Position numbers and translations under genes: made by a program
Notes under the pieces: generated by a model
Databases searched by the model: none
Seen by the model: only the letters and a program-made list of their open reading frames with translations
Told to the model about the DNA's origin: nothing
Shown here: positions 32,760 to 46,982 of the stretch, one piece after another
Position numbering within the stretch: position 1 is the stretch's first letter
Layout of the letters: every line of letters starts with the position of its first letter
Assembly: GCA_946541955.1 (NCBI GenBank)
Contig: CAMNJZ010000007.1
Span: 1 to 48,850 of the forward strand
Direction of reading: 5' to 3'
Length of the DNA: 48,850 nt
Origin: an uncultured Lachnospiraceae bacterium
GTDB taxonomy: Bacteria; Bacillota; Clostridia; Lachnospirales; Lachnospiraceae

Positions 32760-32780
32760 ATTACTTGTTAATATTACTGC

Positions 32781-32862
32781 TGGGGGAGCGCATGCTGAGA
32801 AACCGGACCAGAGCCGGTGACCCTTATTACCTGATCCGGATAATGCCGGCGCAGGGAAGCCT
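32781..32862 (+). ncRNA. TPP riboswitch (THI element)
   Basis: GGGGGAGC...GCTGAGAAACCGGACCAGAGCCGGTGACCCTTATTACCTGATCCGGATAATGCCGGCGCAGGGAAGC carries the conserved CUGAGA and ACCUGAUCCGGAUAAUGCCGGCGUAGGGA-type cores. Confidence 0.95.
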
Positions 32863-32920
32863 GACAGAGAACTGCAGACAAGGCCCGCAGGGCCCTCTGG
32901 AGACTTTGTCTGCGATGCCC

Positions 32921-39439: not shown

Positions 39440-41011
39440 ATGGCAGCACGATTATTTGGGGCGATCGATGTTGGAAGCTATGAGCTGGAGCTCAAGATCT
39501 TTGAGATCTCCAGAAAGAACGGGATCCGTGTGATCGATAACATCGTTCGCAGACTGGACCTGGGAACAGACACTTATCATTACGGGAAGCTGAGCCTTCG
39601 GCGCTCGGAGGAGCTCAAGAGGGTCCTCTCGGAGTTCCGGCGGGTCATGGACAACTATGGGGTGGAGGCCTACAAGGCCTATGGCACCAGCGCCATCCGG
39701 GAGCTGACCGGCGCGTCCATCATTCTGGACCAGATCGAAAACGAGACAGGGATCCATATCGACATTCTCGGCAACGCCGAGCAGCGTTTCCTGGATTACA
39801 AGTCCATTGCCTCCAAGGCGGACACCTTTGAGAAGATGATCGAAACGGGGACCGCCATTCTGGATATCGGCAGCGGCAGCATCCAGGTCTCCCTCTTTGA
39901 CAACAAAAAGCTGGTCACCACCCAGAACATCAATATCGGCGTCCTGCGTCTGCACGAGCAGGTGAGCCGGATCAACGCCCCCACTGCCAAGTTCGAGAGC
40001 CTGGTGGAGGAAATCTGCAATTCCAGACTGAAGATCTTCAAGCATCTGTATCTGGAAAAGAGAAAGATCGACAACATCATCGTGGTGGACGACTATATCT
40101 CCGACATCATCCATAAGCCCAATGTGGAGGGCCATCTGCAGGAGCTGGCCGAGCGGGAGAATGAAGCGGGCGGAGACCGGAGCCTTCTGACCATGCAGAA
40201 ATTCAACCGGCTCTATGACCAGATCAAGTCCGTCAACCGGGCGGAGGCCGCAAGGCTCCTGGAGATCGCGGAGGAGAACGTGCCCCTGGCCCACATCTCG
40301 GCCATCATCATGCGCTGCGTCTGCGACCTCATGAAGGTGGAAAATATCTGGCTTCCCGGCGTGGTGCTCTGCGACGGCATGATGTACGAATACGCCGAAA
40401 AGCAGAAGATCCTGTCTTCGCCCCATGATTTCGAGCAGGATATCATTGCCAGCGCCCAGGAGATCAGCCGCCGTTACAACGGATCTCAGGAACGAAGCCG
40501 GACCCTGGAGAAGATCACCCTGAAGATCTTTGATTCCACCAGACGGATCCACGGCCTGGGCGACCGGGAAAGACTCCTTCTGCAGATTTCGGCCATCTTG
40601 CATGACTGCGGCAAGTTCATCAGCATGAACAATCTGTCCGACTGCGCCTACCAGATCATCATGAATACGGAGATCATCGGCATCTCCCGCCTGGAGCGTG
40701 AGATCATCGCCAATGTGGTCCGCTTCAACCATGCTGACTTTGTCTACTTCGAAAAGCAGTCAGGCATCGACAGAAATTCCTACATGACCATCACCAAGCT
40801 GACGGCCATCCTGCGGGTGGCCAACGGACTGGACCGGTCCCACAAGCACAAATTCGGGGATTTCAAGATCCGGGTCAAGGACGACCAGCTGATCATCACA
40901 GTAGATTCCAAGAGAGACATTACCCTGGAGAAGGGCCTGTTCTACAACCGGGCTGATTTCTTTGAAGAGGTATACGGCATCCGGCCTGTCATCAAGCAGA
41001 AAAAGGATTAA
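39440..41011 (+). CDS. Ppx/GppA phosphatase-family protein with C-terminal HD-type domain
   Basis: GAIDVGSYELELKIFEI, YGTSAIRELTGA, AILDIGSGSIQVSLFD, LLLQISAILHDCGKFI. Confidence 0.87.
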   Translation: MAARLFGAIDVGSYELELKIFEISRKNGIRVIDNIVRRLDLGTDTYHYGKLSLRRSEELKRVLSEFRRVMDNYGVEAYKAYGTSAIRELTGASIILDQIENETGIHIDILGNAEQRFLDYKSIASKADTFEKMIETGTAILDIGSGSIQVSLFDNKKLVTTQNINIGVLRLHEQVSRINAPTAKFESLVEEICNSRLKIFKHLYLEKRKIDNIIVVDDYISDIIHKPNVEGHLQELAERENEAGGDRSLLTMQKFNRLYDQIKSVNRAEAARLLEIAEENVPLAHISAIIMRCVCDLMKVENIWLPGVVLCDGMMYEYAEKQKILSSPHDFEQDIIASAQEISRRYNGSQERSRTLEKITLKIFDSTRRIHGLGDRERLLLQISAILHDCGKFISMNNLSDCAYQIIMNTEIIGISRLEREIIANVVRFNHADFVYFEKQSGIDRNSYMTITKLTAILRVANGLDRSHKHKFGDFKIRVKDDQLIITVDSKRDITLEKGLFYNRADFFEEVYGIRPVIKQKKD

Positions 41012-41028
41012 GAAGGGGGGACAGATCC

Positions 41029-43227
41029 ATGGCACCAATGAATGAGAAAATCGATTTCAGGAATCCTGAATACTATATCAACCGAGAGCTGAGCTGGCTG
41101 CAGTTCAACAGAAGATGCCTGTCCGAGGCCAGAAGCAAGGACAATCCGCTCCTGGAGCGGCTGAAATTCCTGAGCATCACCGCCTCCAACCTGGATGAGT
41201 TCTTCATGGTCCGGGTGGCATCCCTCCAGGACCAGGAGCATACCGGCTACAAGAAGAAGGACATTGCCGGCATGACGGCGGGCGAGCAGCTGACGGCCAT
41301 CTTGAAGGACGCCCATCTTTTCATGCAGCAGCAGTACTGGACCCTCAACCACCAGCTCCTGCCGGGCCTTCGGGAAAACAACATTTTTGTCCTGGGCAGC
41401 TTTGAGGAGCTGACGGAAAAGGAAAGACAGTTCACAGACGCCTATTTCATGAACGACGTCTATCCGGTCCTGACTCCCATGGCTATCGACTCCACCAGGC
41501 CCTTCCCGCTGATCCGCAACAAGAGCCTGAACATCGGCGCCCTGCTGACAAGAAAGGTCAATGCGGGCCCCGGCATCCTGAACAGGGAGAAGAAGAAAAA
41601 GAAGGAGGAAAAGGCCCAGAAGCACCTTCTGGAATACGCCACCGTCCAGGTTCCCTCCGTTCTGCCCAGAGTCATCCTCCTGCCCGAGACCGAGGAGGGC
41701 CAGATCCGGGCCATCCTTCTCGAGGAGGTGATCCGGGCCAACATGGCAAGGCTCTTCCTCAACTATGACGTGGTCTGCGCCTATCCCTATAGGATCATGC
41801 GCAATGCAGACCTGGGCGTGGACGAGGACGAGGCGGAAGACCTGCTCAAGGAGATCGAGTCCAAGCTCAGAAAGCGCCAGAGAGGCCAGGCCATCCGTCT
41901 GGAGATCGAGGAGGGCGCGGACGTCAGGCTCCTTCAGTTCCTGACCCAGGAAATGGATATCCCGGAGCCCTATATCTTCCCTATCGACGGCCCCATCGAC
42001 CTGACCTTCCTGATGAAGCTCTATGGCATGGTGGGCCACGACGAGCTCAGAGAGCATGGCTATCCGAAGCCCCAGATGGTGCCGGAATTCCCGGAGGGGT
42101 GCGACCTCTTTGAAGAGATCAGCCGGCATGACGTCTTCATGCACCATCCCTATCAGAGCTTCCAGCCCGTGGTAGACCTGGTCAGACAGGCCGCTGTGGA
42201 TCCTCAGGTCCTGGCCATCAAGCAGACCCTCTACCGTGTCAGCGGCAACTCCCCCATCGTGGCGGCCCTGGCCAAGGCGGCTGAGAACGACAAGCAGGTC
42301 ACCGTCCTGGTGGAGCTGAAAGCCAGGTTCGATGAGGAGCACAACATTGAATGGGCCAAGATGCTTGAAAAAGCCGGCTGCCATGTCATCTACGGCCTGG
42401 TGGGCCTCAAGACCCATTCCAAGATCACCCTGATCGTCCGGAAGGAGGAGGACGGCATCCGCCGCTATGTCCATCTGGGGACCGGCAACTACAATGACTC
42501 CACAGCCAAGCTCTATACCGACGTGGGCCTGATGACCTGCAATGAGCAGATCGGCGAAGACGCCACCGCTGTCTTCAACATGCTGTCCGGTTATTCCGAG
42601 CCCAGAAGCTGGAACAAGCTGGTCTGCGCCCCTCTGTGGCTCAAGAACCGCTTCCTCTACATGATCGAACGGGAAAAGCGCCACGCAGAGCATGGCGAGA
42701 CGGCCCATATCAAGGCCAAGATGAACGCCCTGTGCGATCCTGATATTATCGCAGCCCTCTACAGCGCCAGCGCGGCCGGCGTGGAGATCGATCTGATCGT
42801 CCGCGGCATCTGCTGCCTCAAGGTCGGCATTCCCGGCGTTTCCGAGAACATTCATGTCCGGTCCATCGTAGGCAACTACCTGGAGCACAGCCGGATCTAC
42901 TGCTTTGAGAACGGCGGAAGACCGGAGGTCTATGCGGCCAGCGCCGACTGGATGCCCAGGAACCTGGACAGACGTGTGGAGATCATGTTCCCCCTGGAGG
43001 ATGAGGCCATCCGGGAGAGAGCCATTGCCATTCTGGATACAGAGCTGGAGGATACCCTCAAGGCCCATATCATGAAGCCTGACGGAACCTATGAAAAGGT
43101 CGACAAGCGGGGCAAGGATCTGATCAATTCCCAGAAGGTATTCGGCGAGGAGGCCGTACAGGCGGCCAAGGTCCTGGCCAAGGCCAGGGACAGCCGTGTG
43201 TTTGTTCCCAGGACCTCCGAGGAATAA
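41029..43227 (+). CDS. ppk1: Polyphosphate kinase 1
   Basis: YINRELSWLQFNRRCLSEA, ITASNLDEFFMVRVASLQDQ, YVHLGTGNYNDSTAKLYTDVGLMT, ADWMPRNLDRRVEIMFPL. Confidence 0.97.
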   Translation: MAPMNEKIDFRNPEYYINRELSWLQFNRRCLSEARSKDNPLLERLKFLSITASNLDEFFMVRVASLQDQEHTGYKKKDIAGMTAGEQLTAILKDAHLFMQQQYWTLNHQLLPGLRENNIFVLGSFEELTEKERQFTDAYFMNDVYPVLTPMAIDSTRPFPLIRNKSLNIGALLTRKVNAGPGILNREKKKKKEEKAQKHLLEYATVQVPSVLPRVILLPETEEGQIRAILLEEVIRANMARLFLNYDVVCAYPYRIMRNADLGVDEDEAEDLLKEIESKLRKRQRGQAIRLEIEEGADVRLLQFLTQEMDIPEPYIFPIDGPIDLTFLMKLYGMVGHDELREHGYPKPQMVPEFPEGCDLFEEISRHDVFMHHPYQSFQPVVDLVRQAAVDPQVLAIKQTLYRVSGNSPIVAALAKAAENDKQVTVLVELKARFDEEHNIEWAKMLEKAGCHVIYGLVGLKTHSKITLIVRKEEDGIRRYVHLGTGNYNDSTAKLYTDVGLMTCNEQIGEDATAVFNMLSGYSEPRSWNKLVCAPLWLKNRFLYMIEREKRHAEHGETAHIKAKMNALCDPDIIAALYSASAAGVEIDLIVRGICCLKVGIPGVSENIHVRSIVGNYLEHSRIYCFENGGRPEVYAASADWMPRNLDRRVEIMFPLEDEAIRERAIAILDTELEDTLKAHIMKPDGTYEKVDKRGKDLINSQKVFGEEAVQAAKVLAKARDSRVFVPRTSEE

Positions 43228-43276
43228 GCGCTCTGACAAAAATTTGTCAGATTTACCTGTCAGGACAGGGATTTCT

Positions 43277-43309
43277 GTATTTATTTGGGAATAAATACGG
43301 GTATTTTTT
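43277..43309 (+). terminator. Possible AT-rich terminator after ppk1
   Basis: Perfect 9-bp stem GTATTTATT-tggg-AATAAATAC, then GGGTATTTTTTG. Confidence 0.5.
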
Positions 43310-43371
43310 GCCGGACTTATCGTTATAATGTAGGGGATTGTAACTGAGGCACCACAACGAAAGGAGCATGA

Positions 43372-44790
43372 ATGGGCGGATTTTTTGCAGCAGCGTCCAG
43401 AGAGGCCTGTATCTTTGACCTGTTCTTTGGAACAGACTATCATTCCCACCTGGGTACCAGGAGGGCCGGTATGGTCACCTATGACCCGGAGGAGGGCTTC
43501 AACAGAGCCATTCACAATATTGAAAACTCACCTTTCCGCACAAAGTTTGACAAAGAAGTCAATGAAATGAAGGGAAATATCGGCATCGGCTGTATTTCCG
43601 ACTATGATCCCCAGCCCCTGCTGGTCCGTTCCCGGCACGGTTCCTACGCCATCATGACGGTGGGTAAGATCAATAACATCCAGGAGCTGACTGAGGAGAT
43701 CATGCAGGAGGGCAGCACCCACTTCTTTGTCCAGTCCCACGACGTGATCAATTCCACAGAGCTGACGGCAGCCCTGATCAACCACAAGGAGAATTTCATA
43801 GAAGGCATCAAATATGCCCAGGACAGGATCGACGGTTCCATGACCATCCTGATCCTGACCCCCAAGGGCATCTATGCAGCCAGAGACAAGATGGGCAGGA
43901 CCCCCGTGGTCCTGGGCCAGAAGGACACGGGCTTCTGCGCGTCCTTTGAATCCTTCGCCTACCTGAATCTGGGCTACAGGGACCTTAGGGAGCTGGGGCC
44001 CGGCGAGATCGTGGTCTTTGATGACAAGGGCGTTCGGACCCTGGTAAAGCCCGGCGCCAGGATGCGGATCTGTACCTTCCTCTGGGTCTACTACGGCTAT
44101 CCTTCCTCCAAGTACGAAGGCGTGTCCGTGGAAAAGATGCGCTATGACTGCGGCAAGGCCCTGGCCAAACGGGACAAGGAGCAGAAGATCCACATCGATA
44201 TCGTGGCCGGCGTTCCCGATTCCGGTACGGCCCATGCCATCGGCTATGCCAATGAATCCGGCAAGCCCTTCTCCAGACCCTTTATCAAGTACACCCCTAC
44301 CTGGCCCAGGTCCTTTATGCCGACCATCCAGGAAAAGAGGAACCTGATCGCCAAGATGAAGATGATCCCGGTCCACGAGCTGATCGAGGGCAAGAACATC
44401 CTTCTGATCGACGATTCCATCGTCCGCGGCACCCAGCTGCGGGAGACCACCGAGTATCTTTTTGACAGCGGTGCCAAGGAGGTCCACGTCAGACCTGCCT
44501 GCCCGCCCATCCTCTACGGCTGCAAATATATCAACTTCTCCAGATCCAACTCCGATATGGAGCTGATCGCCAGAAGGGTCATCTGTGACCTGGAGGGCGG
44601 CGATGTGTCAGACGAAGTCCTGGCCGAGTACGCTGATCCGGATACAGAACGCTACCAGAGGATGCAGGAGGAGATCGGTAGACGCATGAAGTTCACCTCC
44701 ATCCGCTACCAGAGACTGGACGATATGATCGATGCCATCGGCAAGGACAGAGAATGCCTCTGCACCTACTGCTGGGACGGCAGAGAATAA
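43372..44790 (+). CDS. Amidophosphoribosyltransferase (PurF)-like protein with degenerate glutaminase domain
   Basis: C-terminal PRTase ILLIDDSIVRGTQLRETTEYLF; N-terminal MGGFFAAASREACIFDLFFGTDYHSHLGTRRAGM lacks the MCG catalytic Cys. Confidence 0.88.
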   Translation: MGGFFAAASREACIFDLFFGTDYHSHLGTRRAGMVTYDPEEGFNRAIHNIENSPFRTKFDKEVNEMKGNIGIGCISDYDPQPLLVRSRHGSYAIMTVGKINNIQELTEEIMQEGSTHFFVQSHDVINSTELTAALINHKENFIEGIKYAQDRIDGSMTILILTPKGIYAARDKMGRTPVVLGQKDTGFCASFESFAYLNLGYRDLRELGPGEIVVFDDKGVRTLVKPGARMRICTFLWVYYGYPSSKYEGVSVEKMRYDCGKALAKRDKEQKIHIDIVAGVPDSGTAHAIGYANESGKPFSRPFIKYTPTWPRSFMPTIQEKRNLIAKMKMIPVHELIEGKNILLIDDSIVRGTQLRETTEYLFDSGAKEVHVRPACPPILYGCKYINFSRSNSDMELIARRVICDLEGGDVSDEVLAEYADPDTERYQRMQEEIGRRMKFTSIRYQRLDDMIDAIGKDRECLCTYCWDGRE

Positions 44791-44816: not shown

Positions 44817-44928
44817 GAAAAGACCAGAGGCCATGCCCCTGGTCGAAAAGACCAGAGGCCATGCCCCTGGTCGAAAAGACCAGAGGCCATGCCCCTGGTC
44901 GAAAAGACCAGAGGCCATGCCTCTGGTC
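44817..44928. repeat. Four tandem 28-bp units, each a hairpin
   Basis: 4 x GAAAAGACCAGAGGCCATGCCCCTGGTC (last unit GCCTCTGGTC, perfect stem GACCAGAGGC/GCCTCTGGTC). Confidence 0.97.
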
Positions 44929-44940
44929 TTATTTTTATTC
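44822..44940. terminator. Tandem bidirectional terminator array between convergent genes
   Basis: On minus each stem is followed by TCTTTTC; on plus only the last stem is followed by TTATTTTTATT. Confidence 0.75.
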
Positions 44941-44970
44941 TTATAAGTTTTTTCAGTCCGGTATGCCGGA

Positions 44971-46602
44971 TCAGTTGTCCTCTTCGACGGAGACGTAAAC
45001 GGTACGCTTTCTGGCGTCGGCGTTGCTTGCCAGGTATTCGTCATAGGTGGTGACCTTATCGATGATGGAGCCGTCGGGCAGGATCTCGATAATGCGGTTG
45101 GCGGTGGTCTCCACGACCTGGTGGTCACGGCAGGCAAAGAGCTCGACCCCGGGGAACTTGATCATGCCTTCGTTGAGGGCGGAGATGGATTCCATATCCA
45201 GGTGGTTGGTGGGCTCGTCGAAGATCAGGCAGTTGGCGCCGCTGATCATCATCTTGGACAGCTGGCAGCGGACTCTTTCGCCGCCGGACAGGACGTTGAG
45301 GCGCTTGACGCCGTCGTCGCCCGCAAAGAGCATTCTGCCCAGGAAGCCTCGGACATAGGTCACGTCCTTGATGGGAGAGTAGCCTGTCAGCCATTCGGTG
45401 ATGGTATATTCGCTGGCGAATTCCCTGGAATTGTCCTTTTCGAAATAGGCCTGGGAGGTGGTGATGCCCCACTTGTAGGAGCCTTCATCGGGCTCCATCC
45501 TGCCGGTCAGGATCTCGAAAAGAGTGGTCTTGGCCAGCTCCTGGCTGCCTACGAAGGCGATCTTGTCGTCATGACCCATGATAAAGGAAACATTGTCCAG
45601 GACCTTGACCCCGTTGATGGTCTTGGAGATCCCGTTGACAGTCAGGACCTCGTTGCCGATCTCACGGTCGGGACGGAAGTCGATGTAGGGATACTTGCGG
45701 CTGGAAGGACGGATCTCCTCCAGCTGGATCTTCTCCAGGGCTCTCTTTCTGGAGGTAGCCTGCTTGGACTTGGAAGCGTTGGCGGAGAAGCGGGAGATGA
45801 ACTCCTTGAGCTCCTTGATCTTTTCTTCCTTCTTCTTATTGGCTTCCTTCATCTGACGGATCATCAGCTGTGAGGACTGGTACCAGAAATCATAGTTGCC
45901 GGCGTAGAGCTGAATCTTGCCATAGTCGATGTCGGCGATATAGGTACAGACCTTGTTGAGGAAGTAACGGTCGTGGGAGACCACGATCACGGTGTTTTCA
46001 AAGTTGATCAGGAATTCCTCGAGCCATGCGATGGCGTCCAGGTCCAGATGGTTGGTGGGCTCGTCCAGGAGCAGGACGTCGGGATTGCCGAACAGGGCTC
46101 TGGCCAGAAGGACCTTGACCTTCTGGGCACCGGTCAGCTCCCGCATCAGATAGGTATGGAGATCGGTTTCGATTCCCAGACCGTTCAGCAGAGTCTCGGC
46201 GTCGGATTCGGCTTCCCAGCCGTTCATCTCGGCGAATTCCCCTTCCAGCTCGCTGGCCCGGATGCCGTCCTCGTCGGAAAAATCCTCCTTGGCGTAGAGG
46301 GCGTCCTTTTCCTTCATGATCTGGTAGAGCCTGGCGTTGCCCTGGATGACGGTATCCAGGACCACCTGGCCGTCATACTTGTTCTGGTCCTGCTCCAGGA
46401 AGGAGAGGCGCTGGCCGGGGGTCATGGAGATATTACCGCTGGAGGTATCCAGCTGTCCGGACAGGATCTTGAGGAAGGTGGACTTGCCTGCGCCGTTGGC
46501 ACCGATGATGCCGTAGCAGTTGCCTTCCGTAAATTTGATATTGACATCTTCAAAAAGTGCTTTCTTTCCGAGACGGAGTGTAACACCATTTGCCTGAATC
46601 AT
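44971..46602 (-). CDS. ABC-F family ATPase (YkpA/YbiT-like)
   Basis: Two NBDs: GIIGANGAGKSTFLKIL, VLLLDEPTNHLD; LSGGERVRCQL, CLIFDEPTNHLD; interdomain linker with charged helices. Confidence 0.95.
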   Translation of the reverse strand: MIQANGVTLRLGKKALFEDVNIKFTEGNCYGIIGANGAGKSTFLKILSGQLDTSSGNISMTPGQRLSFLEQDQNKYDGQVVLDTVIQGNARLYQIMKEKDALYAKEDFSDEDGIRASELEGEFAEMNGWEAESDAETLLNGLGIETDLHTYLMRELTGAQKVKVLLARALFGNPDVLLLDEPTNHLDLDAIAWLEEFLINFENTVIVVSHDRYFLNKVCTYIADIDYGKIQLYAGNYDFWYQSSQLMIRQMKEANKKKEEKIKELKEFISRFSANASKSKQATSRKRALEKIQLEEIRPSSRKYPYIDFRPDREIGNEVLTVNGISKTINGVKVLDNVSFIMGHDDKIAFVGSQELAKTTLFEILTGRMEPDEGSYKWGITTSQAYFEKDNSREFASEYTITEWLTGYSPIKDVTYVRGFLGRMLFAGDDGVKRLNVLSGGERVRCQLSKMMISGANCLIFDEPTNHLDMESISALNEGMIKFPGVELFACRDHQVVETTANRIIEILPDGSIIDKVTTYDEYLASNADARKRTVYVSVEEDN

Positions 46603-46724: not shown

Positions 46725-46982
46725 GTGCTTAATTTTTTCCTTCCTATATTCCCTCCTATATTCCTTACTATGCTCCCTTCTTATATTCCTTCCTGATATT
46801 GATCTGTGCATTGATCTATGCTTTCTGTCATCGCCCCTGAGTCCTGGCGCCTTTCGCCCCTGCTTTGCCGGCTCTGTAAGAGAGGAAAAACTGCTGTTAA
46901 AAACCATGGATTTTTATGAAAAATCCAAAAAATTTCTAGAGGCATCAAAGAATTCTCTATATTCAATTGTGCAAGTCGGTGC

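Follow-up and report, generated by a model that had tools for sequence, protein, structure and literature searches.

Four tandem copies of a 28-bp hairpin unit between convergent genes of a Lachnospiraceae bacterium: a probable local expansion of a bidirectional terminator

Introduction

Why does the gap between two convergent genes of a Lachnospiraceae bacterium hold four abutting copies of the same hairpin-forming unit, and what would these copies do to the transcripts that enter the gap from either side? The window analyzed here (48,850 nucleotides) is one complete contig of a draft Lachnospiraceae metagenome-assembled genome (164 contigs, 2.24 Mb, 85% complete). The convergent setting proposed for the array in a first-pass annotation is borne out by the gene models: the 180-base gap that holds the array is bounded by the stop of the plus-strand gene at 44790 and the stop of the minus-strand gene at 44971. 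The two flanking genes are:

43372..44790, plus strand: purF-like gene of the amidophosphoribosyltransferase family, GATase_7 above the Pfam cut-off
44971..46602, minus strand: ABC-F family ATPase gene, best NCBIfam model PRK15064 (631 bits vs a cut-off of 762)

The match of the purF-like gene to purF TIGR01134 is below the cut-off of that model (350 bits, compared with 198 bits for the protein), and the Pribosyltran match is likewise below cut-off; the gene may represent a paralogue whose function lies outside de novo purine synthesis. Judged by this gene, the closest named relatives of the genome are the Lachnospiraceae metagenome-assembled genomes UBA3287 and CAMOGQ01 (93-94% protein identity). 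The same-strand run at 39440-44790 of the window includes a ppx/gppA-like gene, a polyphosphate kinase gene and this divergent purF-like gene, and ppk is retained beside the purF-like gene in the relative G019. Other elements of the same contig are a TPP riboswitch (RF00059, 63 bits) at 32772-32874 on the plus strand and an imperfect 12/24-bp tandem repeat (TTCCTTCCTATA) at 46737-46800, upstream of the ABC-F gene and before a gene for a sugar-binding protein. Two minus-strand open reading frames of 84 and 123 amino acids that run across the array were judged spurious because they overlap real genes.

Sequence and structure of the array

The array (44817-44928) consists of four abutting copies of GAAAAGACCAGAGGCCATGCCCCTGGTC in head-to-tail orientation, without spacers. 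The first three copies are identical, and the fourth departs from them at a single site, with T in place of C, exactly as the first-pass annotation had described the four contiguous 28-nt units. Each unit forms a 10-bp hairpin, and the array as a whole is an inverted repeat. The features of the array are:

44817..44844, no strand: copy 1, hairpin at 44822-44844, the last hairpin reached by minus-strand transcripts; on the minus strand 10 bp including one G.U pair, tail TTTTCATATGTTTAG; on the plus strand an A.C mismatch and no U-tract
44845..44872, no strand: copy 2, hairpin at 44850-44872, sequence as in copy 1, minus-strand tail TTTTCGACC
44873..44900, no strand: copy 3, hairpin at 44878-44900, sequence as in copy 1, minus-strand tail TTTTCGACC
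44901..44928, no strand: copy 4, the sole copy with T, perfect hairpin at 44906-44928, with the stem reaching 12 bp at 44904-44930
44904..44941, plus strand: canonical intrinsic terminator predicted for the purF-like transcript, in which a 12-bp stem with a loop of 3 nt precedes the tail ATTTTTATTCT

The Tandem Repeats Finder (TRF) score of the array is 217, compared with a maximum of 73 when the entire window was shuffled 100 times with dinucleotides preserved, and the folding z-scores of the region relative to shuffles are -11.3 for the minus-strand RNA and -10.7 for the plus-strand RNA. An assembly artefact, with a different real copy number, possibly one, is conceivable in a draft of this kind (164 contigs, 85% complete), but an array of 112 bp fits within common short reads, and copy 4 is distinct from the others. 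Moreover, assemblers collapse such repeats more often than they invent them, which also counts against an artefact, and we regard this explanation as extremely unlikely.

Predicted termination of plus-strand transcripts

The four copies are not equivalent for transcripts of the purF-like gene. In the plus-strand RNA, copy 4 forms a perfect stem (-17.9 kcal/mol) followed by T at seven of the next eight positions, and the flanking AA/TT extends this stem to 12 bp (-20.4 kcal/mol) with the tail ATTTTTATTC. Thus, on this strand, copy 4 has the anatomy of an intrinsic (Rho-independent) terminator, namely a GC-rich hairpin directly followed by a U-rich tract. Such a tract is lacking on the plus strand of copies 1-3, where the tail is GAAAAGACC, with no T in the next eight nucleotides, and the stem, which contains an A.C mismatch, is weaker (-13.1 kcal/mol). 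Copies 1-3 are therefore not predicted to act as terminators for plus-strand transcripts. The first-pass annotation had correctly recognized that copies 1-3 share an A-C mismatch on one strand; the variable site yields an A.C mismatch in the plus-strand RNA and a G.U pair in the minus-strand RNA of these copies, whereas copy 4 is perfectly paired.

The only copy with a plus-strand U-tract is also the only one without a mismatch in its plus-strand stem, a coincidence that depends on one variable site. Copy 4, with its A-rich and T-rich flanks, is the probable ancestral bidirectional terminator, and the state of the variable site would fit this scenario, with copies 1-3 having been freed from the plus-strand constraint; this pattern is suggestive only because one site and one probable mutation are behind it. 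In terminator stems, the change from A-U to G-U is the most commonly tolerated one (PMC5381666). In Staphylococcus aureus, a single A.C mispair in the stem of the sbrB/lexA terminator lets transcription read through in antisense to the convergent gene (PMC8745188). The array shares with that terminator an A.C mispair within the stem but differs in that the mispair is confined to copies without a plus-strand U-tract, so that the plus-strand terminator should not be weakened.

Possible termination of minus-strand transcripts

In the minus-strand RNA, all four units form the full 10-bp stem with the loop AUG, including one G.U pair in copies 1-3, and these hairpins (-17.0 to -17.9 kcal/mol) are each followed by UUUUC, that is, four U and then C. 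The proposal that every stem in this orientation is followed by TCTTTTC holds inasmuch as there is a U-run after every minus-strand stem, but two of these bases belong to the stem, and the actual run is TTTTC. In three of the four copies, TTTTC abuts the next stem directly (TTTTCGACC), which is why a consensus terminator scan (at least five T in eight) accepts only one copy on each strand, copy 4 on the plus strand and copy 1 on the minus strand.

When compared with 397 strong hairpins followed by at least four T from 1.85 Mb of the same genome, the proximal-weighted scores of the minus-strand tails, calculated with the 10-bp stem (-4.08, -4.08, -4.08 and -4.46), are near the second-decile cut-off of -4.19 (deciles -4.64 and -4.19); the score for copy 4 falls to -2.92 if the AA/TT pairs are counted as part of the stem. 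Equilibrium folding of the growing minus-strand RNA indicates that the arm preceding each U-run is paired at every length, either locally or in a longer rod. In Bacillus subtilis, U-tracts with distal interruptions terminate transcription with the help of NusA/NusG (PMC8060035). Given the tail scores, the paired arms and this precedent, serial moderate termination of the ABC-F transcripts appears plausible.

Hairpin clusters are common terminators according to PMC8355165, where two tandem hairpins are reported to outperform single ones, and where two-hairpin clusters are the most common whereas larger clusters become exponentially rarer. The structural criterion given there, at least two hairpins less than 15 bases apart and close past the stop codon, applies to the array, in which the four hairpins are spaced by 5 nt and the first minus-strand hairpin is located approximately 41 nt past the ABC-F stop. 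Tandem hairpin terminators as such are thus already known from this source. The array resembles these clusters in that several hairpins separated by a few bases occur just past a stop codon; unlike in the array, clusters of exact unit copies are not described in the available part of that work, and the fact that the hairpins of the array are repeats implies their recent common origin.

Altogether, full pairing and UUUUC in all minus-strand copies and a plus-strand U-tract in copy 4 alone make it plausible that ABC-F transcripts meet up to four modest terminators and the purF-like transcript a single one. The interpretation of the locus as a terminator array thus fits the minus-strand anatomy, with four full hairpins each followed by UUUU, but needs to be amended with respect to symmetry, given that only copy 4 would serve plus-strand transcripts. 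Likewise, the suggestion that ABC-F transcripts would meet up to four terminators in a row stands as far as the number of hairpins with a U-run is concerned, but because the minus-strand U-tracts are short and interrupted, these would be four modest terminators.

In the minimum free energy fold of either strand, the units merge into a single long rod, in keeping with the inverted-repeat character of the array. This structure is compatible with an RNA-level element, in which rods in read-through RNA would shield a 3' end or provide a cleavage site for RNase III, with no involvement in termination. We consider such a function quite unlikely inasmuch as local hairpins are expected to be the first to fold as transcription proceeds, and the U-run that directly follows each minus-strand hairpin would be needless in a pure RNA element. 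A search of the window against Rfam detected no RNA family at the array; the matches were the TPP riboswitch and a tRNA elsewhere.

Distribution of the unit and similar terminators

With up to three mismatches allowed, the unit was found neither elsewhere in the entire assembly nor in the 61 other genomes of the genus that were searched. The exact pattern of the array has no match among the GTDB representatives, the unit has none in plasmid or phage collections, and the exact pattern has none in IMG/VR. The 1.85 Mb (~82%) of the genome that was covered contained no further tandem array of identical intergenic hairpins. Within the first 1.68 Mb, 84 of the 94 other tandem repeats with a period of at least 15 and a score of 60 or more have a period that is a multiple of three, as is the case for coding repeats. 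A 169-bp tandem repeat (2.3 copies, 97% identity) is located at G000:C6:32987-33368. Samples of the relatives contained no arrays of identical hairpins, apart from a CRISPR-like array in G051; this long array (G051:C1, about 273600-281200) has a repeat of ~33 bases (GCTTAAATCCACCCGCTCTTACGAGCGGGATC) and a period of ~66 bases, with unique stretches in between.

Several other origins of the array were considered and rejected. The occurrence at one locus only is incompatible with the unit belonging to a dispersed family, and REP/BIME dispersed palindromes, which are present in many copies per genome, do not correspond to a unit found at a single locus (up to three mismatches). The lack of matches in the respective collections speaks against an origin from a mobile element, plasmid or phage, and a CRISPR array was discarded because the repeats abut, without spacers. 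Tandem palindromes do look like protein-binding arrays, so that an array of DNA-level sites, such as operators, iterons, partition sites or REP/BIME-type repeats, comes to mind. However, the neighbors of this single, non-dispersed locus are housekeeping metabolic genes, spacers are absent, and there is neither a match in the plasmid and phage collections nor an exact one in IMG/VR, which makes a DNA-level function most improbable.

The form of copy 4 is not unusual in itself. The closest look-alike (G000:C15:31223-31254, AAGACCTGCGGCCATGCCGCAGGTCTTATTTT) is a single hairpin, likewise located between convergent genes, which is the same as copy 4 except for two stem pairs, both with compensatory changes. 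From this look-alike it is evident that copy 4 is built like a normal bidirectional terminator of this organism, by shared origin or by convergence. Similar terminators of the form AAGACC...GGTCTT in three other genomes are weaker matches. A survey of convergent junctions indicates that many of those in the genome possess one hairpin with A-rich and T-rich flanks; the gene caller used in this survey was crude and missed some true junctions, including that of the array itself, so the survey serves only as a guide to the usual terminator style. Terminators common to two convergent genes are more conserved (PMC5381666). As in the bidirectional intrinsic terminators of convergent genes (PMC5381666; Ju et al. 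2019, via PMC8060035), the GC-rich hairpin of copy 4, located between convergent genes, is flanked by A-rich sequence on its 5' side and by T-rich sequence on its 3' side, and would be usable on both strands. In contrast to the single hairpin that is usual in these terminators, the array comprises four tandem copies, three of them one-directional. The array is slightly unusual in two respects: its hairpins are exact copies, and the strands are asymmetric.

Gene order in relatives and the origin of the array

In the two closest relatives (G019 and G020), the purF-like and ABC-F genes are ~3.9 kb apart. The intervening genes in G019 encode a PRiA4_ORF3/SEC-C protein and a DUF2812 protein; in this relative, one ordinary-looking terminator closes the purF-like gene and another one the ABC-F gene. 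In four more distant relatives (G076, G071, G064 and G046), the gene order is kept, with 1.7-4.6 kb between the two genes. Hence, the intervening genes were either lost in the lineage of the window or acquired in the relatives; loss seems likelier because all six relatives carry something between the two genes. The array is limited to the lineage in which the purF-like/ABC-F pair is directly adjacent.

The proposal of an expanded terminator agrees with these observations, and the near-identity of the copies together with the absence of the unit from all other genomes searched indicates that the expansion was recent and local. It is possible, although rather unlikely, that a palindromic terminator was duplicated by chance in replication, leaving one working copy and three passengers that are later lost. 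Hairpin-forming DNA is prone to slippage, the array is present in one genome only, the near-identity of its copies implies that the expansion is recent, and single terminators suffice in the relatives. The retention of full minus-strand pairing in all three variant copies argues against such neutral slippage, but these copies probably descend from one another, so this retention counts as one event. The further proposal of the first-pass annotation, that copy number tunes termination, is not supported: neutral slippage accounts for the copy number equally well and predicts the same sequence.

The idea of a hypervariable terminator goes further: slippage would shift the number of units between strains and thereby step the level of ABC-F read-through, which is antisense over the purF-like gene. 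We find this scenario very improbable, in which the array would be a contingency locus that operates at the ends of transcripts and not, as others do, through promoters or reading frames. The array is not conserved, so that selection for four copies is only hypothetical; its existence can be accounted for by a recent tandem duplication of neutral or mildly beneficial effect.

A model for the array

The explanation that we favor, and consider probable, is that one bidirectional intrinsic terminator expanded locally to four copies, with serial moderate termination on the minus strand and termination at copy 4 only on the plus strand. Under this model, a single bidirectional terminator between the convergent genes would have multiplied through tandem duplication at the locus into four copies arranged head to tail. 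On the minus strand, each copy would form a complete hairpin of 10-12 bp with UUUUC directly after it, so that RNA polymerase would have up to four moderate opportunities in succession to halt ahead of the purF-like gene. On the plus strand, copy 4 alone, with its U-rich tail, would act as a terminator. Copies 1-3 would be free to carry C because the price for the minus-strand hairpin is no more than a G.U wobble. Termination in vivo, the order of the duplications and any additive benefit of the copies are what we infer from this anatomy.

As it stands, the array is a small, lineage-specific curiosity of one genome. If the minus-strand copies are additive, it would represent a natural series of four terminator copies and demonstrate that simple tandem duplication is one route by which the strength of terminators between convergent genes can evolve.
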